Notes under the pieces: generated by a model
The model's database searches: none
Seen by the model: the letters and a program-made list of their open reading frames with translations, nothing else
What the model was told of the DNA's origin: nothing
Source of the DNA: Bacillota bacterium
GTDB taxonomy: Bacteria; Bacillota; Sulfobacillia; JAJZYS01; JAJZLH01
Length of the DNA: 48,274 bases
Reading direction: 5' to 3'
Assembly (NCBI GenBank): GCA_021803575.1
Contig: JAJZLH010000074.1
Coordinates: 1 to 48,274, forward strand
Shown here: positions 9,786 through 23,370 of the stretch, in pieces
Layout: the number at the start of each line of letters is the position of its first letter
Numbering within the stretch: the first letter of the stretch is position 1
Made by a program: the position numbers and the translations under genes

Positions 9786-10193
9786 TCAGCTTCCCGCCAA
9801 GAGGTGCAGTCGCTGCCAGATCTGATCGGACACTGGCATCACCGATAGCCGGCTCTGGCGAATCAGCTCCCAGGCGGCGAAGGCAGGATCCGCCTTGATC
9901 GTGCTGAGCGATATGGGGCGGGGAAGACGATAGGCCGGACAGACGTCCACCAGCTGGATGCGGGGATCGTCCTGGCCCGGCTCGGGATAGGGGTCGCTCA
10001 CCACCCGGCAGACCCCCACCACCTGGCGCTCAGTCCCGGTGTGGTAGAAGAGGCAGAGATCGCCCACCCGCATGCGCGCCATGTGGTGGAGCGCCGTCCA
10101 GTTGCGCACGCCGTCCCAGCGGTCCTGGCCGCGGGCCACCAGGTCGTCGTAGCTGAAGACCCCAGGCTCAGTCTTGAGCAGCCAGTATGCCAC
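9786..10193 (-). CDS. EVE (PUA-like) domain protein
   Basis: The 135-residue protein is a single EVE domain: MAYWLLKTEP at the N-terminus, YDDLVARGQDRWDGVRNWTA, MRVGDLCLFYHTG, VVGVCRVVSDPYPE and a C-terminal ELIRQSRLSVMPVSDQIW. EVE domains are PUA-fold modules that bind modified bases such as methylcytosine in DNA or RNA. The start is GTG with GGAGG nine bases upstream, right after the stop of the MoaD-like gene. It is the last gene of a three-gene set with a beta-propeller protein and a MoaD-like protein. Confidence 0.9.
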   Translation of the reverse strand: MAYWLLKTEPGVFSYDDLVARGQDRWDGVRNWTALHHMARMRVGDLCLFYHTGTERQVVGVCRVVSDPYPEPGQDDPRIQLVDVCPAYRLPRPISLSTIKADPAFAAWELIRQSRLSVMPVSDQIWQRLHLLAGS

Positions 10194-10214: not shown

Positions 10215-10514
10215 TCAGCTGGCCGGCCGGGCTCTGTCGCCACCGCCGGAGACGGCCCGGATCACCCACACGTCCTCGCCGTCGGAGAGAGGGAGCCTGG
10301 GGCCATCCTCGCCCCTGGCCAGGGCCTGGGGCAAGAAGATGTTGAGGTGGGGGCGAATCGCCCCGTCGGCCGAGGTGAGCCGGCTGCCGAGTCCGGGGTA
10401 GGTCCGGTCCAGGCTGGTCAGCAGGTCGCCCAGGGTGGGTGCGGCAGGGAGCTGGAGCGGGTTTTGGAATCCGAAGGCGGCGGCCAGGTCATCGGGCAGG
10501 TGCACCGTGATCAC
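10215..10514 (-). CDS. MoaD/ThiS-like ubiquitin-fold protein
   Basis: The start is the GTG that overlaps the stop of the propeller gene as GTGA, giving 99 residues; the longer frame upstream is inside that gene. The sequence has the beta-grasp pattern of sulfur carriers: VITVHLPDDLAAAF, LPAAPTLGDLLTSLDRTYPG, RPHLNIFLP and LPLSDGEDVWVIRAVSGGG. MoaD and ThiS end in Gly-Gly; here glycines occur in SGGG but eight residues (DRARPAS and stop context) follow, so activation would need trimming. No MoaE, MoeB or thiamine genes flank it. Coupled translation with the propeller protein suggests a shared function. Confidence 0.82.
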   Translation of the reverse strand: MITVHLPDDLAAAFGFQNPLQLPAAPTLGDLLTSLDRTYPGLGSRLTSADGAIRPHLNIFLPQALARGEDGPRLPLSDGEDVWVIRAVSGGGDRARPAS

Positions 10515-11587
10515 GGGGCGTACGCCACCGCCACCGAGTGGATGCGCGGCAGGTGGTCGGCCACCACCTGCCACCTCTCGCCCTCGTCGGCGGAGGCGAA
10601 GAGGCTGCCGGAGGTGGTGCCCAGGTAGAGGCCGAGCGGGTCGTGGGCGTCGGCCCGAAAGCCGTCGCGCAGGACGCCTGTGAACACGTGGGCGGGCAGG
10701 CCCTGCTGGAGAGCCCGCCAGGTCTTGCCGGCGTCGTCCGTGCGGTGCACGGCCAGCTGCAAAGCCGGCGGCAGCCGGCCCTCTCCTAGCGGGATGACAT
10801 AGGCGGTGTCAGGGCGCCGGGGATGGGCTAGCACCGGGAACCCGAAGTCGGAGGGCAGGCCCTGACCGATGTCGATCCAGCTGTCCCCGCCGTCGTCGGA
10901 GCGGTAGACGCCGCCGTGGTTTTGCAGGTAGAGGCGATCCGGGGCTGCAGCCAGGGAGAACTTGTGCACGCACTGGCCGACTTCCGGGAAGCGCTGATCC
11001 TCGGGCATAAAGTCGCAGCGGATGCCTTGGTTCTTGGGTTCCCAGCTGTTCCCGCCGTCATCTGTCCGGTAGAGGCCGCCGGTGGAGCAGGCGAAGAACA
11101 TGCGGCCGGGCCGGTGGGGATCCATGGCCAGTGTGTGCATGCACTTGCCGCCGAAGCCGGAGGCCCACTGCTCGTGCGTGGGATGGCTTCGGATGCCATC
11201 CACCTCCTGCCAGCTGTCGCCGCCGTCAAGCGACCGGAAGAGACCGCTCGCCTCCACGCCGGCGTAGAGCAGATCCGGCTGGTCGGCGGGGCCGGGCAGG
11301 ATGGACCAGACCCGGAGGACTTCCTCCGGGTCACCGGGCGCGTACGAGAGGTCGCAGCCGCCCTGATCCCAGGTGGCTCCCAGGTCATGCGAGCGGCGGA
11401 TGGACGGCCCGTAGAAGATGTCGTTGACGCCGGCCAGCAGGCTGCCGCTGCGCGGGTCCTGCACCGCCGCGTAGATCGGTGCGCCCAGGAAGTCGGGCCC
11501 CTCCTCCTGCCAGGAGTGCCGGTCTCTGGAGCGAAAACGGAACAAGCCCTTGGCGGTGCCGACCAACAGGACCACATCCTGAGCCAC
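10511..11587 (-). CDS. Asp-box (BNR) beta-propeller protein, sialidase-like
   Basis: The GTG at 11587 is preferred over the longer frame: GGGAGG lies seven bases upstream and the product begins MAQDVVLLVGTAKGLFRF, as in family members. The 358 residues form a propeller with at least six Asp-box turns of the type S/T-x-D-x-G-x-S/T-W, for instance RSLDGGDSW, RTDDGGNSW, RSDDGGDSW and RTDDAGKTW. No signal peptide is present, so it is probably cytoplasmic, and the catalytic arginine triad of true sialidases is not evident. It overlaps a MoaD-like gene by four bases; that pairing points to a role other than sugar hydrolysis. Confidence 0.85.
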   Translation of the reverse strand: MAQDVVLLVGTAKGLFRFRSRDRHSWQEEGPDFLGAPIYAAVQDPRSGSLLAGVNDIFYGPSIRRSHDLGATWDQGGCDLSYAPGDPEEVLRVWSILPGPADQPDLLYAGVEASGLFRSLDGGDSWQEVDGIRSHPTHEQWASGFGGKCMHTLAMDPHRPGRMFFACSTGGLYRTDDGGNSWEPKNQGIRCDFMPEDQRFPEVGQCVHKFSLAAAPDRLYLQNHGGVYRSDDGGDSWIDIGQGLPSDFGFPVLAHPRRPDTAYVIPLGEGRLPPALQLAVHRTDDAGKTWRALQQGLPAHVFTGVLRDGFRADAHDPLGLYLGTTSGSLFASADEGERWQVVADHLPRIHSVAVAYAP

Positions 11588-11713
11588 GGCGAGACCTCCC
11601 TGAGCAGTGCCGGCGGATGATTCAGGAGCCATCACGAATCGACACCTGCCTGGCGTTCGCCGCCTCGCTCCGCACCCCTGCCGGAGGGGATCCCCATGGA
11701 AGGGAGCCGACCG

Positions 11714-12925
11714 ATGCGTGAGTTCACGCGAGAGGTGGCGCGCCGCTACCTTCTCGGCAGCCAGGGCCTGTGGCCGGGAAAGCGTTGGCGGGGGAAGGGG
11801 GGCGCCGCCCAGGCCCTGGAGGCGCTTGGTGCGGTGCAGATGGACCCGGTCTCACTGATCCATCGCAGCCACGACCTGGTGCTGTTGAGCCGGGTCGAAG
11901 GCTACCAGCCAGAGCACCTGGATCAGCTGCTCTACACCGACCGCCGTTTCTTTGACTACGGCGGCCACCTCGACATGTATCCGATGGCAGAACTCCCGTA
12001 CTGGCGCCAGCACATGGCTCGCCGGGGCCAGCAGCTTAGGGCAGAGGGCTGGCTGGACGACCACCAGGCCGTCATCGACCGGGTGCTGAACGAGATCACG
12101 GAGAGGGGCCCGCTGTTCAGCCGCGAGCTGATTGGCAGCCGCCAGGTGGACAGCTACCGTGGCAGGAAGGACTCGGGCGTGGCGCTCTACTTCCTGTGGC
12201 TGACCGGCGTGACCATGACCCACTCGCGAAAAGGCTTCGAGCGGAGATACGACCTGAGAGGGCGCGTCGCTCCGGAGAATCTCGGCTGGCAGGCAGACGA
12301 GGCAGCCGTGAACGCCTGGTCCGAGGCGGCGGCGCTCCACAGGGCAGGCCTTTGCACGGCGGTGGGCTGGGCCCAGGGTGTCCGCTATCGGCGGCTGGGG
12401 GACAGCTGGCCGGCGGCCGAGCGGGTACGGGCGGTCGGGCGGCTGGTCAGGTGCGGCGCGGCGGCCGAGATCCGGCTGACGGGCCTGCCGGGCAGCTTCC
12501 TGGTGCCCGGAGAAGCCTTACCCCAGCTCGAGGAGCTGGCCAGAGGCGGCCTGCCGGCCGAGTGGACACCATTGCCTGGCCAGGCAACCCGGGTCATGAC
12601 CTTTCTCTCTCCGCTGGACAACCTGGTGCATGACCGCCGGCGCACGCTCCATCTGTTCGACTTCGACTACCTCTGGGAGATCTACACCAAGGCCGAGCGG
12701 CGACGGTATGGGCCCTACACCTTGCCGATCCTGTACGGTGACCGGCTGGTCGGCCGCATCGACCTGCGCCTCGACCGCTCGAAGCGGCGGCTGGAAGTGA
12801 ACGGCGTGTGGTGGGAGAACCAAAAGGAAGCCACAGGGAAGCGATTCCAGGCAGCCTTCGGCGAGTGCCTTGAGGCCTTTGCGGCGGCCCACGGGGCAAG
12901 GGACGTCGGCCCCGCCGGCGTCTAG
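11714..12925 (+). CDS. YcaQ/AlkZ-family DNA glycosylase
   Basis: This 403-residue HTH_42 family protein starts at ATG with GAAGGGAG upstream; an earlier in-frame start at 11696 lacks a ribosome site. Residues 42-44 read QMD, the QxD motif typical of the YcaQ branch that unhooks DNA interstrand crosslinks, as opposed to QxQ in AlkZ. Other conserved parts are RSHDLVLLSRV, FLSPLDNLVHDRRRTLHLFD and the YVP-like GPYTLPILYGDRLVGRIDLR. It likely removes bulky alkylated bases or crosslinks from natural products. It is divergent from the propeller operon; the 126 bases between carry no clear promoter. Confidence 0.88.
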   Translation: MREFTREVARRYLLGSQGLWPGKRWRGKGGAAQALEALGAVQMDPVSLIHRSHDLVLLSRVEGYQPEHLDQLLYTDRRFFDYGGHLDMYPMAELPYWRQHMARRGQQLRAEGWLDDHQAVIDRVLNEITERGPLFSRELIGSRQVDSYRGRKDSGVALYFLWLTGVTMTHSRKGFERRYDLRGRVAPENLGWQADEAAVNAWSEAAALHRAGLCTAVGWAQGVRYRRLGDSWPAAERVRAVGRLVRCGAAAEIRLTGLPGSFLVPGEALPQLEELARGGLPAEWTPLPGQATRVMTFLSPLDNLVHDRRRTLHLFDFDYLWEIYTKAERRRYGPYTLPILYGDRLVGRIDLRLDRSKRRLEVNGVWWENQKEATGKRFQAAFGECLEAFAAAHGARDVGPAGV

Positions 12926-13384: not shown

Positions 13385-15340
13385 ATGGCAGAGCGCCGCA
13401 TCCAACCCTACGGCACCTGGGCCTCGCCGATCACCGCCGCGCTTCTGGTGGAGAGGACACGGGGAGTCAGCGAGCTGCAGCTGGACGGGGAGGACGTCTA
13501 CTGGCTGGAGGCCCGGCCCAGCGAGGGCGGGCGGATGGTGGTGGTGCAGCGCGACCGGGCTGGGGTGCTCCACGACCGCACACCAGAGGGGATGAACGCC
13601 CGCACCCGCGTCCACGAGTACGGCGGTGCCTCCTACGGCGTCTACCAAGGCGTGGTCTACTTTTCCAACTTCGCTGATAACCGTCTCTACCAGCTGGCAC
13701 CAGGCGGCGAGCCAGTGGCCGTCAGCGCCGAGGCACCGATGCGCTATGCCAATCCCGTGCTTGACGGGCAGCGCCAGCGCCTGATCGCCATCCGGGAGGA
13801 CCACACGGTGGACCGGCCGTCCGATGTGGTGAACACCCTGGTGGCGATCGACCTCGCAGCCGGTCACCGCCAGGTGGTGCTGGCCTCCGGCCACGACTTC
13901 TACGCCTGGCCCAGGCTCAGCCCGGATGGGCGCCAGCTGGCCTGGTTGTGCTGGGACCACCCGAACATGCCCTGGGACGGCACCGAGCTGTGGGTGGCCG
14001 ACGTGGCGGCGGACGGCTCCCTCTCCGCCCAGCGGCAGGTCGCTGGCGGCAGCCAGGAGTCGATCGCCCAGCCCAGCTGGAGCCCCAGCGGCCAGCTCCA
14101 CTTCATCTCCGACCGCACCGGCTGGTGGAACCTCTACCGGGCGGAGGCCACAGGCGCCGTCCCCCTCCTGCCGCTGGCGGCGGAGTTCTCGGGGCCGCAG
14201 TGGTCGTGCGAGATGTCGACGTACGCCTTTCTGGCCGGGGGGCGGATCCTGGCCATCTACCAGGCGGACGGACGCGCCCACCTCGTGGTCATCAAGCCCG
14301 ACGGGACGAGCCGAGAGGTGGCCCAGCCGTACGCCGCGCTGGCGTCCTTGAAGGTGAGGGGCCAGGTCGCTGTGATGCTCGCCGCCTCCGCCCAGGAGCC
14401 GCCGGCAGTGGTGCGCTGGGACGAGGAGAGCGGCCGCTTCGAGCGGCTCTGGGAGACGATGGCGCTTGACATCGACCGGGCCTTTCTGTCGGTGCCAGAG
14501 GCCATCACCTTCCCAACTACGGGCGGCGAGAGCGCGCACGCCTTCTACTATCCGCCGACCAACCCTGACTTCAGGGCGCCAGCGGGAGAGCGGCCGCCCT
14601 TGCTCACCTTCATCCACGGCGGCCCCACCTCAGCCACCTCTCCCGTCCTCGACCTCGCCATCCAGTTCTGGACCAGCCGCGGCTTCGCCGTGGTCAACGT
14701 CAACTACCGCGGCAGCACCGGCTTCGGCCGCGCCTACCGCCGCCGCCTGATCGGTCAGTGGGGCGTGGCGGATGTGGACGACTGCGTCAGCGCGGCCCGC
14801 TACCTGGTGGCCAAGGGCCTGGCGGACCCAAAGCGGCTCGCCATCCGCGGCGGCAGCGCCGGGGGGTACACCACCCTGGCCGCCCTCACCTTCCGCGATG
14901 TGTTCCGGGCGGGCGCCAGCTATTTCGGGGTGAGCGACATCACCGCCCTGGCCAAGGAGACGCACAAGTTTGAGTCGCGCTACATGGACAGCCTGGTCGG
15001 CCCCTACCCCGCCGCCGAGGAGATCTACCGCGCCCGCTCGCCGGTCCACTTCGCCAGCCGCCTCACCCGGCCGGTCATCTTCTTCCAGGGCGAGGACGAC
15101 AAGATCGTGCTGCCCAACCAGGCCGAAGGGATGGTGGCCGAGCTGCAAAGGGGCGGCGTGCCGGTCGCCTACATCAGCTTCCCGGGCGAGGGGCACGGCT
15201 TTCGGCGGGCCGAGTCGAACCTCAGGGCCCTATCGGCTGAGCTCTACTTCTACGGTCAGGTGTTCGGCTTTGAGCCAGCCGATCGGCTGGAGCCGGTGGA
15301 GATTCACAACCGGGATCGGCTCAGGGAGCCGAAGAGCTGA
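13385..15340 (+). CDS. S9 family prolyl oligopeptidase-like peptidase
   Basis: The ATG at 13385, with AAGGAG eight bases upstream, gives 651 residues; the longer open frame lies across the preceding terminator. Residues about 30-370 form an N-terminal beta-propeller (repeats such as PSWSPSGQLHFISDRTG), and the C-terminal third is an alpha/beta hydrolase: HGGPTSAT, NYRGSTGFGRAYR, GGSAGG with catalytic Ser491, EDDKIVLPNQ with Asp, and GEGHGF with His. This is the acylaminoacyl-peptidase / dipeptidyl-peptidase group. There is no signal peptide, so it cuts short peptides in the cytoplasm. Its 3' end overlaps the convergent cytX by 20 bases. Confidence 0.93.
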   Translation: MAERRIQPYGTWASPITAALLVERTRGVSELQLDGEDVYWLEARPSEGGRMVVVQRDRAGVLHDRTPEGMNARTRVHEYGGASYGVYQGVVYFSNFADNRLYQLAPGGEPVAVSAEAPMRYANPVLDGQRQRLIAIREDHTVDRPSDVVNTLVAIDLAAGHRQVVLASGHDFYAWPRLSPDGRQLAWLCWDHPNMPWDGTELWVADVAADGSLSAQRQVAGGSQESIAQPSWSPSGQLHFISDRTGWWNLYRAEATGAVPLLPLAAEFSGPQWSCEMSTYAFLAGGRILAIYQADGRAHLVVIKPDGTSREVAQPYAALASLKVRGQVAVMLAASAQEPPAVVRWDEESGRFERLWETMALDIDRAFLSVPEAITFPTTGGESAHAFYYPPTNPDFRAPAGERPPLLTFIHGGPTSATSPVLDLAIQFWTSRGFAVVNVNYRGSTGFGRAYRRRLIGQWGVADVDDCVSAARYLVAKGLADPKRLAIRGGSAGGYTTLAALTFRDVFRAGASYFGVSDITALAKETHKFESRYMDSLVGPYPAAEEIYRARSPVHFASRLTRPVIFFQGEDDKIVLPNQAEGMVAELQRGGVPVAYISFPGEGHGFRRAESNLRALSAELYFYGQVFGFEPADRLEPVEIHNRDRLREPKS

Positions 15341-16718
15341 CCCTGGCGCCGGAGGGCGCCCGGTCGGGCCACAGCCGTTCCAACAGCGGATAGAGGCCAA
15401 GCGACAGCGCGAAGGACAGGATCAGGCCCAGGGACGAGCCGGAGAAGATGCCCTGGGCCAGCGGGCCGGAGAAGACGCCGCTCGAGGTGAAGGCGACAGC
15501 GGCGAGCAGTCCGATCAGCCATGCCACCAGGGCTGGCCACCGGCAGCGAGGCACCGCTGGCTGGCCGAGCCGCCCCCTCGCCAGGTCGAGCAGGAAGATC
15601 GCCGCCCACGGGGCGAGCGCACCGGCCAGAAGGGTGAGAAAGGCCTCAAAGGTGCCGACGAAGCTGTGCGCCACGAGCAGGATGTACAGGCTGGCGGCGA
15701 TCGAGATCACGGCGTCGACGAAGACGGTGCGGGCCCGGGGGAGCTTGACCCGGGCGGCCAGGAGGCTCAGGCCCGAGGAGTAGACGTCCATGATGTCGCC
15801 GGTGACCATGCCGCCGACCGCCGTGATCAGGTAGGGCACGCTCAGCCAGGCGGGCAGGGCCGACTCCAGGAGGCCGACCGGATTGGCCGAGGTGGCCAGG
15901 CCGGGCAGGCCGCTGGCGAGCAGAACGCCGAAGGCGGTCAGGAAGAAGGCCGGGATGACTGAGGCCCAGGTGGTGAGCCAGGTCAGCCGGCGCCCCGAGG
16001 TCTGGGCCGGCAGGTAGCGGCTGTAGTCAGATGCCGTGTTCACCCAGGAGAGTCCGCTGACGGCCACCACGATGGAGAAGGCTGGCAACACCCCGGTCAG
16101 CCAGGGGCCAGGGTGCGTGGCGACAAGCGTGGCCCAGCGCACGTGGGGCAGCCAGAACGCCACTTCCACCAGGGTCAGGGCGCCGAAGACGTAGGAGAAG
16201 AGGGTCTGCACCCGGACGATCGCCCGGTGGCCGAGGAAGGCCACGGAAAAAGCCAGCACCGTCACCACCGCCAGGGAGCCGACCAGGGCGGCGGGGCTGG
16301 GAGCGATGCCAAAGGCTGCTCCCAGAGCCGCCTCCAGGGCGTAGCTGGCGATGACCAGCACCACCGTCTCCCAGCCCACCAGGTTGAGCCAGGAGAGGAG
16401 GCTGGGGAAGACATTGCCCAGTTCGCCGAAGGACGCCGCCGAGAGCACCATGGTCGGCCGCCCGGTGCGGCAGCCGGGGATGGAGAAGTAGCCGATCAGG
16501 AGGTAGGAGAACAGGCCGGAGAGCGCGATCAGGCTCTGCCACCAGGCCAGCCCGTAGCTGGCGACGACGGCGCCGATCACCACCGCCGTGATCGCCAGGT
16601 TGGCGGCGAACCAGACCCAGAACACCTCCCGGAGCGTTCCGGGGCGCGCCGTGTCCGGCACGCCGTCCCGGCCGTAGGGCTCGATGGCGAAAAACTCCCG
16701 CACCGCCGGTTCAGACAT
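15321..16718 (-). CDS. cytX: NCS1-family permease, probable hydroxymethylpyrimidine transporter
   Basis: This 465-residue protein has about twelve hydrophobic helices and NCS1 features (FFAIEPYGRDGVPDTARPG at the start, VNTASDYSRYLP, GDIMDVYSSGLSL). NCS1 carriers import nucleobases and related rings with a cation. Position decides the substrate: it is the last gene of the TPP-riboswitch operon thiD-tenA-cytX, and CytX-type members are predicted hydroxymethylpyrimidine or aminopyrimidine importers. It overlaps tenA by eight bases. The role as thiamine-pyrimidine importer is inferred from context. Confidence 0.88.
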   Translation of the reverse strand: MSEPAVREFFAIEPYGRDGVPDTARPGTLREVFWVWFAANLAITAVVIGAVVASYGLAWWQSLIALSGLFSYLLIGYFSIPGCRTGRPTMVLSAASFGELGNVFPSLLSWLNLVGWETVVLVIASYALEAALGAAFGIAPSPAALVGSLAVVTVLAFSVAFLGHRAIVRVQTLFSYVFGALTLVEVAFWLPHVRWATLVATHPGPWLTGVLPAFSIVVAVSGLSWVNTASDYSRYLPAQTSGRRLTWLTTWASVIPAFFLTAFGVLLASGLPGLATSANPVGLLESALPAWLSVPYLITAVGGMVTGDIMDVYSSGLSLLAARVKLPRARTVFVDAVISIAASLYILLVAHSFVGTFEAFLTLLAGALAPWAAIFLLDLARGRLGQPAVPRCRWPALVAWLIGLLAAVAFTSSGVFSGPLAQGIFSGSSLGLILSFALSLGLYPLLERLWPDRAPSGARVSSSAP

Positions 16719-17400
16719 CGGTGCCAGGTCCTCCTTCCTGCCAGTTCGAGTAGGCTTGGTCCCAAAACGCCCGCTCGTGCTGCACGCCGGTCCGGAAGAT
16801 CGCCGAGAAGGCGTCCTGCCGGCCGGGCGCCAGGTCGGCCAGGCGGTCGGCCAGGGCGATCTGTTCCGCCACGGCCTCGCCGTATGACGGGCCTGAGTAG
16901 GTCTCGATCCACTGCCGGTAGAGCGGGTGCGGGCAGGGCGGCCCCTGGGCCAGCCAGGTCCCCACCTGCCGGTACACCCAGAAGCAGGGCAGGAGCGCCA
17001 TCACCAGATCGCTGTAGTCCCCGTCCCTGGCCCAGCCGAACAGGAAGTCCAGGTAGGCCTGGGTGGCCGGGCCGCGGTCGGCCAGGCTGAGTCGGGCGGG
17101 ATCCTGGCCGAAGGCCTGGGTCAGGGTCTGATGGAGCGCCGTCTCCACCTCGAACACACCCAGCGCATGGTTCAAAAACAGCTGGATCTCCTGGCGGCTG
17201 GGCGCCTTGGCGGCGGCGGCGGCGAGCAGCCGGGCGAAGTCCTCCAGATAGAGGGCGTCCTGTTCCAGAAAGTAGAGGAAGCAGCCGGGCTGAAGCGTGC
17301 CCTGGGCCAGCTCCAGGAGAAAGGGGTGGCCCGTGATCGCCTGCCACTCCGGCTCAACCTCCGCCCACAGGCGGACGTGGAAGGGTGATCCCGCACCCAT
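16711..17400 (-). CDS. tenA: TenA/Thi-4 family aminopyrimidine aminohydrolase (thiaminase II)
   Basis: The ATG at 17398-17400 overlaps the thiD stop (TGATG) and gives 229 residues, the TenA norm; the open frame upstream is an overlap with thiD. Features are AEVEPEWQAITGHPFLLELA, FLEQDALYLEDFARLLA, ALLPCFWVYRQVG with the catalytic-type Cys, and the C-terminal HERAFWDQAYSNW with the conserved Glu. TenA hydrolyses aminopyrimidines from degraded thiamine to hydroxymethylpyrimidine, which ThiD then phosphorylates. It sits between thiD and cytX under the riboswitch. Confidence 0.93.
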   Translation of the reverse strand: MGAGSPFHVRLWAEVEPEWQAITGHPFLLELAQGTLQPGCFLYFLEQDALYLEDFARLLAAAAAKAPSRQEIQLFLNHALGVFEVETALHQTLTQAFGQDPARLSLADRGPATQAYLDFLFGWARDGDYSDLVMALLPCFWVYRQVGTWLAQGPPCPHPLYRQWIETYSGPSYGEAVAEQIALADRLADLAPGRQDAFSAIFRTGVQHERAFWDQAYSNWQEGGPGTDV

Positions 17401-18227
17401 CAGAACAGGACCTCCCTGCCCAGCTGGTGCCCGAGCGGGCCGTGCCCTTGGCCCAGTCCCGGGGCATGGGCAATGGCCGCCTGCACGTAGCGGATGGCCC
17501 GGTCGACGGCCAGGCGCAAAGGCATACCCTGAGCGAGGCCGGTGGCCAGGGCGGCCGAGAGCGTGCAGCCGGTGCCGTGGGTGTGTGCTGTGTGCTGGCG
17601 CGGTGCGCTGAACCAGATGGCCTCGTGGCCGTCCCATAGGAGGTCGTCCACGGTTAGGCCGGAGCGGTGGCCGCCCTTGACCAGGGCCGCCCCGGCCCCC
17701 ATCTCGACCAGCGCCCGGGCCGCCCGCTCCTGATCGGCCGCCGTTTCGACCGGCAGTCCGGTCAAGGCCGCCGCCTCGGCCAGGTTGGGCGTGACCACCG
17801 ACGCCAGCGGCAAGAGCAGGTCGCGTAGCGCCGCTTCGGCCTCCGCTGCCAGGAGCCGGGCGCCAGACTTGGCGACCATCACCGGGTCGAGCACCAGCGG
17901 CAGATGGCTGAGCCCTGCCAGCTCCTGGGCCACCGCCCGCACCACCGGCTCCGATGCCAGCATGCCGCACTTGATGCCGTCGACGCCCAGATCCGCCACC
18001 ACCGCCTGAATCTGGGCGACCACCGCCGCCGGCGAAAGCTCCCAGACGGCGGTCACCTGGCGCGTGTTCTGAGCCGTCACCGCCGTGACGGCGGTCATGG
18101 CGAACCCGCCCAGCCGCTCGATCGTCTTGATGTCAGCCTGGATGCCGGCACCGCCGCCAGAGTCGCTGCCAGCCACGGACAGGACCCGGCAGGGCCGGCT
18201 GGGATCGAGGGCCACAGCCTCGGCCAT
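17400..18227 (-). CDS. thiD: Hydroxymethylpyrimidine (phosphate) kinase
   Basis: This 275-residue ribokinase-fold enzyme phosphorylates HMP and HMP-P for thiamine synthesis. It shows VAGSDSGGGAGIQADIKT, TAVTAQNTRQV, DPVMVAKSGARLL, TPNLAEA and HTHGTGCTLSAALA, the anion hole with the catalytic-type residue next to C. It starts at ATG behind GAGGAGG, about 20 bases after the riboswitch terminator T tract. It is the first gene of thiD-tenA-cytX, which together would import, convert and phosphorylate the pyrimidine half of thiamine. Confidence 0.96.
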   Translation of the reverse strand: MAEAVALDPSRPCRVLSVAGSDSGGGAGIQADIKTIERLGGFAMTAVTAVTAQNTRQVTAVWELSPAAVVAQIQAVVADLGVDGIKCGMLASEPVVRAVAQELAGLSHLPLVLDPVMVAKSGARLLAAEAEAALRDLLLPLASVVTPNLAEAAALTGLPVETAADQERAARALVEMGAGAALVKGGHRSGLTVDDLLWDGHEAIWFSAPRQHTAHTHGTGCTLSAALATGLAQGMPLRLAVDRAIRYVQAAIAHAPGLGQGHGPLGHQLGREVLF

Positions 18228-19653: not shown

Positions 19654-20700
19654 ATGGGTGTGAGCCGGTTGCGGGAGCGGCGGCTGGAGCTGGGCTGGGG
19701 GCAGGCAGAACTGGGCCGGCGCGCTGGCATCAGCCGGCAGGCCGTGAACGCCATCGAACGGGAGCAGACGCGAGCCAATGTGGACACGGCGCTCCGCATC
19801 GCTCAGGCCCTGGGCAGATCGGTGGAGGAGCTGTTCGGCGGCCTGGGATCGGGTGGCCCGGTCTGGGCGGATAGCGAGATTGAGCCCAAGCTTGGCATGC
19901 GGGTGGCAGTCGAGCGCTGGGCCGACCAGGCGGTGGCTCGCCCGATCGCTGCCTACCCGGCCTGGGCGGTGGCGGCGGCCCACGGCGAGGTGCGCCGGGT
20001 GGAAGGGAGAGAGGTGGCGGTCGAGCTCTGGGCGACCAGGCCAGCGCTCTTCATCTACGGGTGCGACCCGGCGCTCGGTCTGCTCGCCGCCCACCTCAGC
20101 CGGACGGGCGGGGAGGGCTGGTGGTGGAACGCCAGCAACGGCCAGGCGCTCTCCCTGCTGAGAGCGGGCCAGGCCCGGGCGGTGGCCCTGCACCATGGCG
20201 TGCTGGAGGCGCGGGCCGTCGACCACAGCTGCCTGCGTCTCAGGCTCGTGGGCTGGCAGAGCGGCTGGCTGGTGGCCCGGGGGAACCCGCTGGGCATCCG
20301 GAGTGCAGCCGATCTCCTGCGGCCGGAGATCCGGGTCGGCGTCCGGGAGAGCGGCGCCGAGGCACGCCGCTTGCTGGAACAAGAGCTGGCAGCGGCCGGG
20401 GTGCCCTGGGCGGGCCTGGCGGGCCGCACCATCCCGGTGCGCAGCCAGCTGGGCGCTGCCCGGCTGGTGGCAGACGGGCTGGTTGACACCGCCATCGGCC
20501 ACGCCGGAGCGGCCAGCGCACTGGCTTGTGATCTGGTACCAATTCGGCAGGAGGTGACCGACCTGCTGATTCCGCGAGCGGTGGCCGAACAGGCGGAGGT
20601 GAGAAAGCTGCTCGCCTGCATGGTCAGCGCGCCGTTCCGGCGTGACCTGGCAGCGGCCGGCCCCTATGACACGGCAAGGACAGGTGAAGAGGTTGGTTAG
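19654..20700 (+). CDS. XRE-type regulator with a periplasmic-binding-protein-like sensor domain
   Basis: The 348-residue protein starts at ATG with GGGAGGG upstream. Residues 1-60 are an XRE helix-turn-helix (RLRERRLELGWGQAELGRRA, GISRQAVNAIEREQ, RIAQALGRSVEELF). From about residue 95 a PBP-like domain follows (LFIYGCDPALGLLAAHLS, VALHHGVLEAR, GWLVARGNP, IRVGVRESGAEARRLLEQEL, DGLVDTAIGHAGAASAL). This design is known in regulators of molybdate/tungstate uptake genes. It overlaps the downstream lipoprotein gene, so it is co-transcribed with and probably controls it, sensing oxyanion inside the cell (inferred). Confidence 0.85.
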   Translation: MGVSRLRERRLELGWGQAELGRRAGISRQAVNAIEREQTRANVDTALRIAQALGRSVEELFGGLGSGGPVWADSEIEPKLGMRVAVERWADQAVARPIAAYPAWAVAAAHGEVRRVEGREVAVELWATRPALFIYGCDPALGLLAAHLSRTGGEGWWWNASNGQALSLLRAGQARAVALHHGVLEARAVDHSCLRLRLVGWQSGWLVARGNPLGIRSAADLLRPEIRVGVRESGAEARRLLEQELAAAGVPWAGLAGRTIPVRSQLGAARLVADGLVDTAIGHAGAASALACDLVPIRQEVTDLLIPRAVAEQAEVRKLLACMVSAPFRRDLAAAGPYDTARTGEEVG

Positions 20701-21583
20701 GCGGCATCTGGCCCTCGCCCTCCTGGTAGCGCTGGTGGGCATGGCCAGCGGCTGCGGCGCCGTATCCACGGCGTCACCCACCCACTCCTCCAAGGTGGTG
20801 GTGCTGTACGCCGGATCTCTGGTGCAGCTGATGGAGCAGTCGCTCGGGCCGGCTTTCGACCGGGCGAGCGGTGACCACTTCCAGGGCTATGCCGGCGGAT
20901 CGGTGGCGCTCGCCAACGAGGTAAAGGGCCGGCTGGTGCGGGCGGACATCTTCATCAGCGCCGAGCCGTCGGTCAACCAGAGCCTGACCGGGCGAGGCAA
21001 CGGCAACTGGGTCTCCTGGTATGCCACCTTCGCCCAGGCCCCCTTGGTCCTGGGCTACAACCCGAAGAGCCAGTTCGCCAACCTGTTTCGGACGGAACCA
21101 TGGTACCAGGTGCTAAAGACGCCCGGGCTGCTCTTGGGACGCACCGATCCGACCCTGGACCCGAAGGGTGTGCTGACCATCGATGTGGTGGAGAGGGAGG
21201 CGGCCCTGCTCGGGCAGCCGGGTCTGGTCAGCCAGATCCTGGGCCCGGCGGAGAATCCGGCGCAGATCTTCCCGGAGCAGGAGCTGGTCGGCCGCCTCTT
21301 GGCTGGGCAGCTGGACGCCGGCTTCTTCTATCAGAATGAGGCGGTCCAGGCCAAGATCCCCTATGTGACGCTGCCGGCGGCGGTCGACCTGGCCGCCCGC
21401 TACACGGTAACGGAACTGAGGGGCGCTCCCGACCCGGCGGCGGCGGCCGCCTTCATCACCTTCCTGTACAGTGCCAGGGGTCAGGCCCTGATGCGGGCCA
21501 GCGGGCTCACACCGCTCACCCCCAGCCTGAGCGGTGCCCCCTCCGCGGTGCCGGCCGGCCTCCGCCACCTGTTCGGCCCGTGA
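20684..21583 (+). CDS. Molybdate/tungstate-type binding lipoprotein (WtpA-like)
   Basis: Starts at 20642, 20666 and 20684 are possible; GTG 20684 is taken because AAGGA lies just upstream and a compact lipoprotein signal follows (MKRLVRRHLALALLVALVGM, lipobox ASGC, Cys24). The 299-residue product matches WtpA/ModA-type binding proteins: LYAGSLVQLMEQ, AGGSVALANEVKG, DIFISAEPS, WYATFAQAPLVLGYNPKS and YQNEAVQAKIPYVTLP. It would capture molybdate or tungstate outside the membrane and pass it to the fused permease-ATPase that begins in its own stop codon (GTGA). Which anion is preferred cannot be told by eye. Confidence 0.87.
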   Translation: MKRLVRRHLALALLVALVGMASGCGAVSTASPTHSSKVVVLYAGSLVQLMEQSLGPAFDRASGDHFQGYAGGSVALANEVKGRLVRADIFISAEPSVNQSLTGRGNGNWVSWYATFAQAPLVLGYNPKSQFANLFRTEPWYQVLKTPGLLLGRTDPTLDPKGVLTIDVVEREAALLGQPGLVSQILGPAENPAQIFPEQELVGRLLAGQLDAGFFYQNEAVQAKIPYVTLPAAVDLAARYTVTELRGAPDPAAAAAFITFLYSARGQALMRASGLTPLTPSLSGAPSAVPAGLRHLFGP

Positions 21584-23370
21584 GGCCTAAGCGCTCTCCG
21601 CTCAGCGTCCGCCTCCTGGGCGGGCTGCTCGCCGTCTACCTCGGCCTGCCGCTGATCGTGCTGGCGACGCACCTCGGCGCCAGTACCTGGCAGGCCGTGG
21701 GCGAGGGTCCGACCCTGGCCGCCCTCGCCACCTCGGTGGAAGCGGCCTCCCTCTCGACGGTCCTGATGGCCGCCTTTGGCATCCCACTCGGCTACGCCCT
21801 GGCTCGCTCCCAGGGCCGGGCCGGTCGCCTGCTCGGGCTGCTAGTCCAGCTGCCGCTGGCCCTGCCGCCCTTGGTCGCCGGCATCCTGCTCCTGCTCTTG
21901 GTCGGACCCTACACCCTGATTGGCACCCTCACCTCCGGCGCCCTCAGCCAGACCTTCCTCGGCATCGTGCTGGCCCAGACCTTCGTCGCCTCTCCCTTTG
22001 TGATCATCAGCGCCAGGAGCGCCTTCCAGGCCATTGATCAGGAGCTCCTGGCCGTGGCCTCCACGCTGGGCGAGCACCCCTTGGGACAGCTGCTGCGGGT
22101 GGCGCTGCCGCTGGCCTGGCCCGGCGTTGCAGCCGGGCTGGCCCTGGGCTGGGTGCGCGCCTTCGGTGAATTCGGGGCGACTGTGATGCTGGCCTACCAC
22201 CCGTACTCGCTGCCGGTTGCCACCTATGTGGCGTTTGGCAGCACCGGCCTGCCTGCCACCTTCGCGCCGGTGATGCTGGCCGCCCTGACCGGCCTCCTCT
22301 TTCTGGTCCTGACCGCGCTCATCCCGCCGCGCTGGCGAAGGGCCCGCCGCTCGGCTTTGGCCGAGCCGTCCCGGCCCCCGGCGGCGGAGGTGCACCAGGA
22401 CCTGTCGTTCCGGCTGAGGCGCGACCTGGGCCCCTTTTCCCTGGACGTGGCCTGGCCGGGCGGTGCCAGGCGGCTCGCCATCCTCGGGCCGTCCGGGGCC
22501 GGCAAGACGCTGACCCTCCGCCTCTTAGCCGGGGTGGATGCGGGCGAGGGCGAGATCCGCTACGGAGAGACGAGAATCGACCAGCTGCCGGCGGAGAGGC
22601 GGGGTATCGGCTATGTGCCGCAGCAGGGTGCCCTGTTCGGGCACCTGACCGTCGCCGACCAGGCGGTCTTCGCCCGGGACGCCGACCGGGCGCTGGCGGC
22701 CTTCTGGCTGGGCGAGATGGGGCTGGCCGCCAGGGCGGGGGCCTTTCCCGACGAACTGTCCGGCGGCGAGCGCCAGCGCCTGGCCCTCATCCGATCGCTG
22801 GCCAGGCGGCCTCGGCTGTTGCTGCTGGACGAACCCCTGTCTGCACTCGACCAGCCGCTCCGGCGGGATCTGCAGCGCCAGATCGCCCATCTGGGCGAGG
22901 TGAGCGGATTGCCGATGGTGGTGGTCAGCCACGACCCGGAGGAAGCCTGGGCCCTGGCCAGCTCGGTGCTGGTGCTGATCGGCGGCAAGGTGGCACAGGC
23001 CGGGACCAAGGAGGAGGTGTTCCGCCACCCCGCCTCGCCCCAGGTGGCGCGCCTGGTCGGCTTCACCGAACTCAATCAGGGGAGGCTCGACGAACAGGGC
23101 GGACTGGTGTGGGGGGGGACCCGCCTGGCCCTCCCCGGGCGGCGGTCGCCGGGGCCGGTGACCTGGGGCGTGGCGCCGGGCGGGGTGCGCCTCGATGAAA
23201 GCGGGCCGTATCAGGGCCGGGTCCTGGAGCGCCTCAGCCGCGTCGGCGGCGACGAGCTGACGGTCGAGCTGGAGGGGGCCAGGCTGACGGTGGCCGGGGG
23301 GCCAGCGCCGCAGGGTCAGGACCGGGTGCAGCTCAGCATCGATGCCGAGGCGGTGGCGGTCTGGGCATAG
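21580..23370 (+). CDS. Fused ABC permease-ATPase, molybdate/tungstate type
   Basis: The 596-residue protein joins the two parts that are usually separate. Residues about 10-255 are a permease with around six helices and the EAA-type coupling loop (ASTLGEHPLGQLLRVALPLA). Residues about 270-490 are the ATPase: Walker A GPSGAGKT near 303, Q loop PQQGALFGHLT, signature LSGGERQRLAL near 393, Walker B LLLLDEPLSALDQ, and H loop VVSHDPEEA. Residues from about 505 form a TOBE-like regulatory tail. The GTG start overlaps the lipoprotein stop by four bases. A homodimer would give two permease and two ATPase halves. Import of molybdate or tungstate is inferred from the binding protein. Confidence 0.9.
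   Translation: MRPKRSPLSVRLLGGLLAVYLGLPLIVLATHLGASTWQAVGEGPTLAALATSVEAASLSTVLMAAFGIPLGYALARSQGRAGRLLGLLVQLPLALPPLVAGILLLLLVGPYTLIGTLTSGALSQTFLGIVLAQTFVASPFVIISARSAFQAIDQELLAVASTLGEHPLGQLLRVALPLAWPGVAAGLALGWVRAFGEFGATVMLAYHPYSLPVATYVAFGSTGLPATFAPVMLAALTGLLFLVLTALIPPRWRRARRSALAEPSRPPAAEVHQDLSFRLRRDLGPFSLDVAWPGGARRLAILGPSGAGKTLTLRLLAGVDAGEGEIRYGETRIDQLPAERRGIGYVPQQGALFGHLTVADQAVFARDADRALAAFWLGEMGLAARAGAFPDELSGGERQRLALIRSLARRPRLLLLDEPLSALDQPLRRDLQRQIAHLGEVSGLPMVVVSHDPEEAWALASSVLVLIGGKVAQAGTKEEVFRHPASPQVARLVGFTELNQGRLDEQGGLVWGGTRLALPGRRSPGPVTWGVAPGGVRLDESGPYQGRVLERLSRVGGDELTVELEGARLTVAGGPAPQGQDRVQLSIDAEAVAVWA

Follow-up and report, generated by a model that had tools for sequence, protein, structure and literature searches.

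A β-propeller gene recurrently paired with a gene for a MoaD/ThiS-type ubiquitin-like protein

Organization of the gene pair

The window, the whole 48,274-nucleotide stretch of Bacillota DNA that was analysed, carries two genes coupled by a four-base stop/start overlap:

10511-11587, minus strand: Asp-box propeller gene; 358 aa, GTG start at 11587, TGA stop at 10513-10511
10215-10514, minus strand: gene for a MoaD/ThiS-type ubiquitin-like protein (UBL) of beta-grasp type; 99 aa, GTG start at 10514, TGA stop at 10217-10215
10511-10514, minus strand: GTGA overlap of the propeller stop and the UBL start, coupling both genes

A propeller gene and a small ubiquitin-fold gene sharing a GTGA are what the original prediction described here, and both were recovered on that strand at those positions. 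A GTGA or ATGA overlap is found also in most Bacillota relatives of the pair. A longer propeller ORF could start at the in-frame GTG at 11635, an extension that finds no support among the relatives.

The propeller and its conserved site

The propeller matches the BNR/Asp-box model (PF02012, above cut-off) and the Sortilin-Vps10 models, and its AF2 model (pLDDT 94.3) combines the repeats and the fold of an Asp-box propeller. The best solved relative is Reut_B4987 (3b7f; profile E 1.2e-93, TM 0.92), a seven-bladed member of the same family; YCF48 and sortilin are also among the structural matches. The published listing of 3b7f gives 7 blades and the function as 'not known', and MoaD goes unmentioned there (PMC2716378). 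Inspection of the window propeller and its relatives by eye showed no signal peptide, and the window sequence predicts a cytoplasmic protein with seven blades. Public records label such propellers 'exo-alpha-sialidase'; no glycoside-hydrolase model scores above its own cut-off with the window propeller.

Seven residues (W94, W141, H151, H208, Q222, H224 and R307) are invariant in 148 propellers drawn from every gene arrangement, and position 271 is Arg in 136 of the 148. Part of this set maps in the window as follows:

11135-11137, minus strand: codon of propeller His151, invariant in 148 propellers
10964-10972, minus strand: propeller Cys206-Val-His208; His208 invariant, position 206 Cys in 142/148 and Asp in 6/148
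10916-10924, minus strand: propeller Gln222-Asn-His224; Gln222 and His224 invariant in 148 propellers
10667-10669, minus strand: propeller Arg307, invariant in 148 propellers

Reut_B4987 keeps the residues aligned with His151, His208, Gln222, His224 and Arg307 but, unlike the window propeller, aligns Asp at Cys206 and Phe at Trp94. In the structural model the conserved residues are predicted to sit at the starts of inner strands or in the B-C and D-A loops, surrounding the channel on the top face, where three His together with a Cys or an Asp would make suitable metal ligands. The same conserved site is present in propellers of Streptomyces, Nocardioides and some Rhodobacterales that have no adjacent UBL, so a catalytic or ligand-binding site is more likely than a surface devoted only to the UBL. 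The site may then serve a function independent of the paired UBL.

The UBL and its Gly-Gly motif

The window UBL matches Pfam ThiS with 25.2 bits against a cut-off of 22.5, and its AF2 model (pLDDT 87.4) has beta-grasp elements followed by a disordered tail; model and Pfam match together place it in the beta-grasp fold of the ThiS family. Its closest solved relative is 3dwg (E 1.2e-10), the other best ones being 4n6e, 2m19 ('molybdopterin converting factor subunit 1') and SAMP1. We take 3dwg and 4n6e to be CysO-type carriers. Of the 35 pair UBLs scanned, just 2 are matched by the moaD model (E<=0.001). The NCBIfam model of SAMP1 (NF041918) matches all 35, more than any other model, with the window UBL at 32.9 bits, below the curated cut-off of 60 bits.

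10242-10247, minus strand: UBL Gly90-Gly91, invariant in the 35-sequence alignment of pair UBLs
10218-10241, minus strand: UBL tail GDRARPAS in the window copy, eight residues past Gly-Gly; two sister genomes have their stop at this place

Gly-Gly is the exact C-terminal end of most unfused pair UBLs, and the window copy runs eight residues beyond it. Both sister-genome UBLs terminate precisely at -AVSGG, with GGT-TAG or GGC-TAG where the window reads GGT-GGC-GAC and reaches its stop eight codons on. The window UBL thus appears, from this comparison, to be an odd copy that has lost the original stop codon. Some other pair UBLs also carry short tails, from one residue to a few. The window tail may be trimmed by the genome's JAB protease, may mark an impaired copy or may reflect a wrong assembly. 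A pair UBL of a Brocadiia MAG (L052:7116-7805) runs in-frame through SGG into a domain resembling low-molecular-weight phosphatases and arsenate reductases.

Other UBLs and cofactor genes of the same genome

The window genome has four ThiS-family genes, three fused to their partners and the fourth being the window UBL, the only one that adjoins a propeller. A MoaD-MoaE fusion (contig C21) has an internal PPVSGG, a ThiS-ThiG fusion (contig C53) an internal AMAGG, and a CysO-E1-rhodanese fusion (contig C18), followed by CysM and JAB, again an internal AMAGG. E1, JAB and MoaE were assigned by Pfam matches; the labels CysM, ThiG and CysO rest on sequence and context. The C18 locus (L024, 4556-8538) is a compact cysteine-synthesis cluster of the triple fusion, CysM, JAB and a second rhodanese. 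The genome has one E1-rhodanese.

The only MoaE of the genome is fused to another MoaD, on C21, and the window UBL is without a MoaE partner; an ordinary MoaD with its MoaE, which would have spoken against the original prediction, was thus not found. Nor is the window UBL a CysO: the linked CysM and JAB lie on C18, and in a tree of about 93 columns, with many weak forks, the pair UBLs branch apart from CysO, ThrC-linked, MoaD and ThiS UBLs. A single origin of the pair UBLs is compatible with this tree, and they may share one. The window UBL is a fourth, unassigned one, distinct from the UBLs of molybdopterin, thiazole and cysteine synthesis.

It had been claimed that the neighbourhood holds no genes for molybdopterin or thiamine, which is not true of the window. 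A cytosine/thiamine-type permease, TenA and ThiD (phosphomethylpyrimidine kinase) follow each other at 15321-18227 (minus strand), 4 kb upstream of the propeller, and point to thiamine pyrimidine salvage. An HTH-PBP-like regulator, a ModA-type binding protein and a fused permease-ATPase at 19654-23370 (plus strand) form a molybdate/tungstate-type importer, the ABC importer genes proper spanning 20642-23370 (plus strand). These salvage and transport genes, 4-13 kb from the pair, are outside its operon and are not sulfur-transfer genes; they do not explain the pair. The further idea that the UBL serves something other than sulfur transfer to known cofactors stands as far as the protein is distinct from the MoaD, ThiS and CysO of its genome; a role outside sulfur transfer found no support.

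Distribution and gene order

The UBL gene follows the propeller gene, mostly with a 4-base overlap, in all 12 relatives from the same order or class that have a full-length propeller and enough sequence beyond the gene. Among 80 loci fetched from named genomes, a set ranked by similarity and not a fair sample, 36 have the UBL directly downstream; they come from Bacillota, Actinobacteriota, Chloroflexota, Acidobacteriota, Gemmatimonadota, Planctomycetota, Verrucomicrobiota and other phyla. All but two of the 44 loci without a downstream UBL belong to Streptomyces relatives (Streptomycetaceae) and to Nocardioides/Propionibacteriales. The Streptomyces loci at first resembled counter-examples; those genomes instead carry UBLs by threonine synthase and in CysO-CysM-JAB, one of which the propeller might use. 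At L123-L128, from Streptomyces, Nocardioides and Kribbella, a UBL distinct from CysO lies directly behind threonine synthase and forms a further putative UBL-client pair.

In 198 actinobacterial genomes sampled evenly, 57 genomes have 58 propellers, 47 of these propellers being UBL-linked (24 with the UBL downstream, 15 upstream including L174, and 8 fused) and 11 unlinked. The UBL-first order of part of the Actinobacteriota is also seen in Proteobacteria (a P. aeruginosa plasmid, Mitsuaria, Burkholderia and Cupriavidus). Three Rhodobacterales propellers have no annotated adjacent UBL, and the propeller family is rare in Bacillota at large (3/299).

The pairing recurs in separate genomes, and chance adjacency is therefore rejected: the two genes adjoin far beyond chance, and propeller and UBL are a real, widespread two-gene module. 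The survey of conservation proposed with the original prediction thus came out in its favour, adjacency being recurrent across many bacterial phyla; the rarity elsewhere that would have counted against it is contradicted by the many genomes in which the two genes adjoin. No third gene is conserved with the pair: the 81 neighbouring proteins compared gave 119 families, each seen in at most two members.

Fusions and co-inheritance

Eight genomes encode both proteins in a single frame, with an N-terminal UBL, [AV][IV]SGG where the two parts join, a linker that is short and variable, in three of the eight just a few residues long, and then the propeller. The fused UBL domains have a mean identity of 54% (minimum 38%) and 23 invariant columns out of 87, and S-G-G is unchanged in 8/8. 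The fusions recur in separate genomes, which argues against an assembly artefact; they may stem from one event and do not count as eight independent origins. Their internal Gly-Gly recalls MoaX, where cleavage after Gly82 is required for function (PMC4326299), and the Deinococcus MoaD-MoaE fusion, which is cut by a JAMM protease (PMC8832034).

Distances among propellers and among their UBLs are correlated (r 0.85 for 36 pairs, a value reached by no permutation; r 0.77 for 25 dereplicated pairs). Vertical descent alone can also produce such a correlation; partnership is better evidenced by the fusions and by the reversal of gene order.

E1 and JAB genes

Of the E1-like and JAB-type partners proposed for survey, an E1 adjoins the pair at a single one of the roughly 90 loci searched, L038 of the Bacillota MAG WH5.bin24, where the propeller (to 1983), the UBL (1980-2252) and an E1 with a rhodanese domain (to 3448) follow each other on one strand. 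JAB is absent from the pair loci searched, as are CysM and MoaE. Genome-wide, an E1 gene is present in 58 of 59 pair genomes, a passed test but weak evidence, most bacteria being expected to have one. A single MoeZR sulfurates both MoaD and CysO in mycobacteria (PMC3227635).

A JAB gene is present in nearly all pair genomes and in all eight fusion genomes. In the actinobacterial sample it is found in 55/57 genomes with a propeller versus 69/141 without; among genomes with some UBL the figures become 55/57 versus 60/65. JAB was ruled out as a specific partner because the enrichment vanishes with this control.

Proposed function of the pair

To our knowledge, sulfur-carrier UBLs come from only a few pathways, the client enzyme defining each. 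We favour the hypothesis, with a probability of about 0.58, that the pair UBL is a dedicated sulfur carrier loaded by E1-rhodanese and that the propeller is its client. The MoeZ-type E1-rhodanese of the cell would adenylate and sulfurate the C-terminal Gly-Gly; the UBL would then dock on the propeller with its Gly-Gly tail near the His/Gln/Trp/Arg site of the top face, and the propeller would put the thiocarboxylate sulfur onto a small-molecule acceptor at the His-rich site. Models for these steps are MoaE using MoaD, ThiG using ThiS and CysM using CysO. A Gly-Gly that is internal, as in the fusions, or followed by a tail, as in the window, would need prior trimming by a JAB protease, and the invariant residue cluster could have a metal or catalytic role. 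Given the invariant Gly-Gly and the one locus in which an E1-rhodanese neighbours the pair, the more economical interpretation is sulfur transfer to an acceptor yet to be named. Observations that count for the hypothesis are the recurrence of the pair in either gene order, the fusions, the conserved Gly-Gly, the E1 operon and the invariant propeller residues. Observations that count against it are the single E1-linked locus, the UBL-less propellers that keep the same site, the JAB enrichment that disappears under control, the many weak forks of the UBL tree and the tail behind Gly-Gly in the window copy. More tentatively, the His-rich, possibly metal-binding propeller could represent a new class of UBL-dependent enzymes in many phyla, using sulfur from its own dedicated thiocarboxylated UBL to make or modify a metabolite yet to be named.

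The pair resembles MoaD-MoaE and MoaX in having a Gly-Gly UBL beside, or N-terminally fused to, a candidate user enzyme, with a cell-wide E1 that is shared. It differs from them in that the propeller is unrelated to MoaE, Moco genes are not linked and the genome has a separate MoaD-MoaE. The likeness to CysO-CysM-Mec+ (JAB) lies in CysO being the closest solved UBL, in the association of a UBL with a candidate client, and in the presence of E1-rhodanese and JAB in the genome. Unlike in that system, no cysteine synthase lies by the pair, the genome's own CysO is separate and E1-fused, and the two UBLs are on different tree branches.

A non-covalent partnership, with the UBL as a stable subunit or regulator whose Gly-Gly enters the propeller pocket as a plug or a structural element and is never activated, is unlikely but deserves the most attention among the alternatives. 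E1 is seldom linked to the pair, Gly-Gly lies within the chain in the fusions, three of which have a linker just a few residues long, and peptide C-termini are ligands of related propellers (the D1 peptide for YCF48; sortilin). However, no feature is conserved more strongly than Gly-Gly, which is the exact end of most unfused copies, as in activated UBLs, and in L038 an E1-rhodanese comes directly behind the pair.

We consider it improbable that the UBL is a protein modifier that becomes attached to the propeller itself or, by way of the propeller, to further proteins, and is released by JAB as deconjugase. Like Haloferax SAMP1, the pair UBLs have a beta-grasp fold and, in most of them, a C-terminal Gly-Gly, and all those scanned match its model, and nearly all pair genomes have JAB and E1. 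Against this, the window UBL stays below the curated cut-off, a non-systematic look at the surroundings of the pairs turned up no gene for an E2-like protein or another ligase, and the E1 neighbour in L038 has the rhodanese domain that typifies sulfur transfer.

Co-regulation of two members of one pathway whose products never touch is a very remote alternative: translational coupling alone is no proof of binding, but the single-chain fusions, the two gene orders and the lack of a third conserved gene speak for contact. That the UBL is an ordinary MoaD with a distant MoaE, beside the propeller by chance, is hardly credible despite the Pfam ThiS match and the molybdate-type importer in the window, given the MoaD-MoaE fusion elsewhere in the genome, the near absence of moaD matches and an adjacency that recurs across phyla, by which the survey already contradicts it.

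Iyer et al. 2006 described operons of ThiS/MoaD with E1-rhodanese, often with JAB, outside Moco and thiamine synthesis (PMC1779556), and the propeller-UBL-E1/rhodanese locus L038 fits this class. Neither a propeller nor BNR, sialidase, sortilin or YCF48 is mentioned in the main text of that study (PMC1779556). No prior description of the propeller-UBL pair emerged from a search of mainly open-access literature; the pair is apparently undescribed and probably sulfur-handling.

The propeller is a client candidate of unrelated fold that is widespread and usually annotated just 'sialidase'. The fusions and the E1-containing operon make its partnership with the UBL directly testable, and the pair could give a function to the orphan 3b7f family and to many partnerless 'MoaD/ThiS family' genes.

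Other genes near the propellers

An EVE-domain gene lies downstream of the pair (window 9786-10193, minus strand) and a gene for an AlkZ-like DNA glycosylase divergently upstream (window 11696-12925, plus strand), both conserved there only within the genus. A DNA-repair link was dropped, AlkZ and EVE being restricted to the genus and Ung to Streptomyces-type loci without UBL. At these loci ung (uracil-DNA glycosylase) closely follows most UBL-less propellers (L058:7110-7796 and about 36 others). In a Dehalococcoidia MAG, a thiosulfate-sulfurtransferase homologue (L055:7872-8732, minus strand), 52% identical to one in the window genome, lies near a UBL-less propeller.
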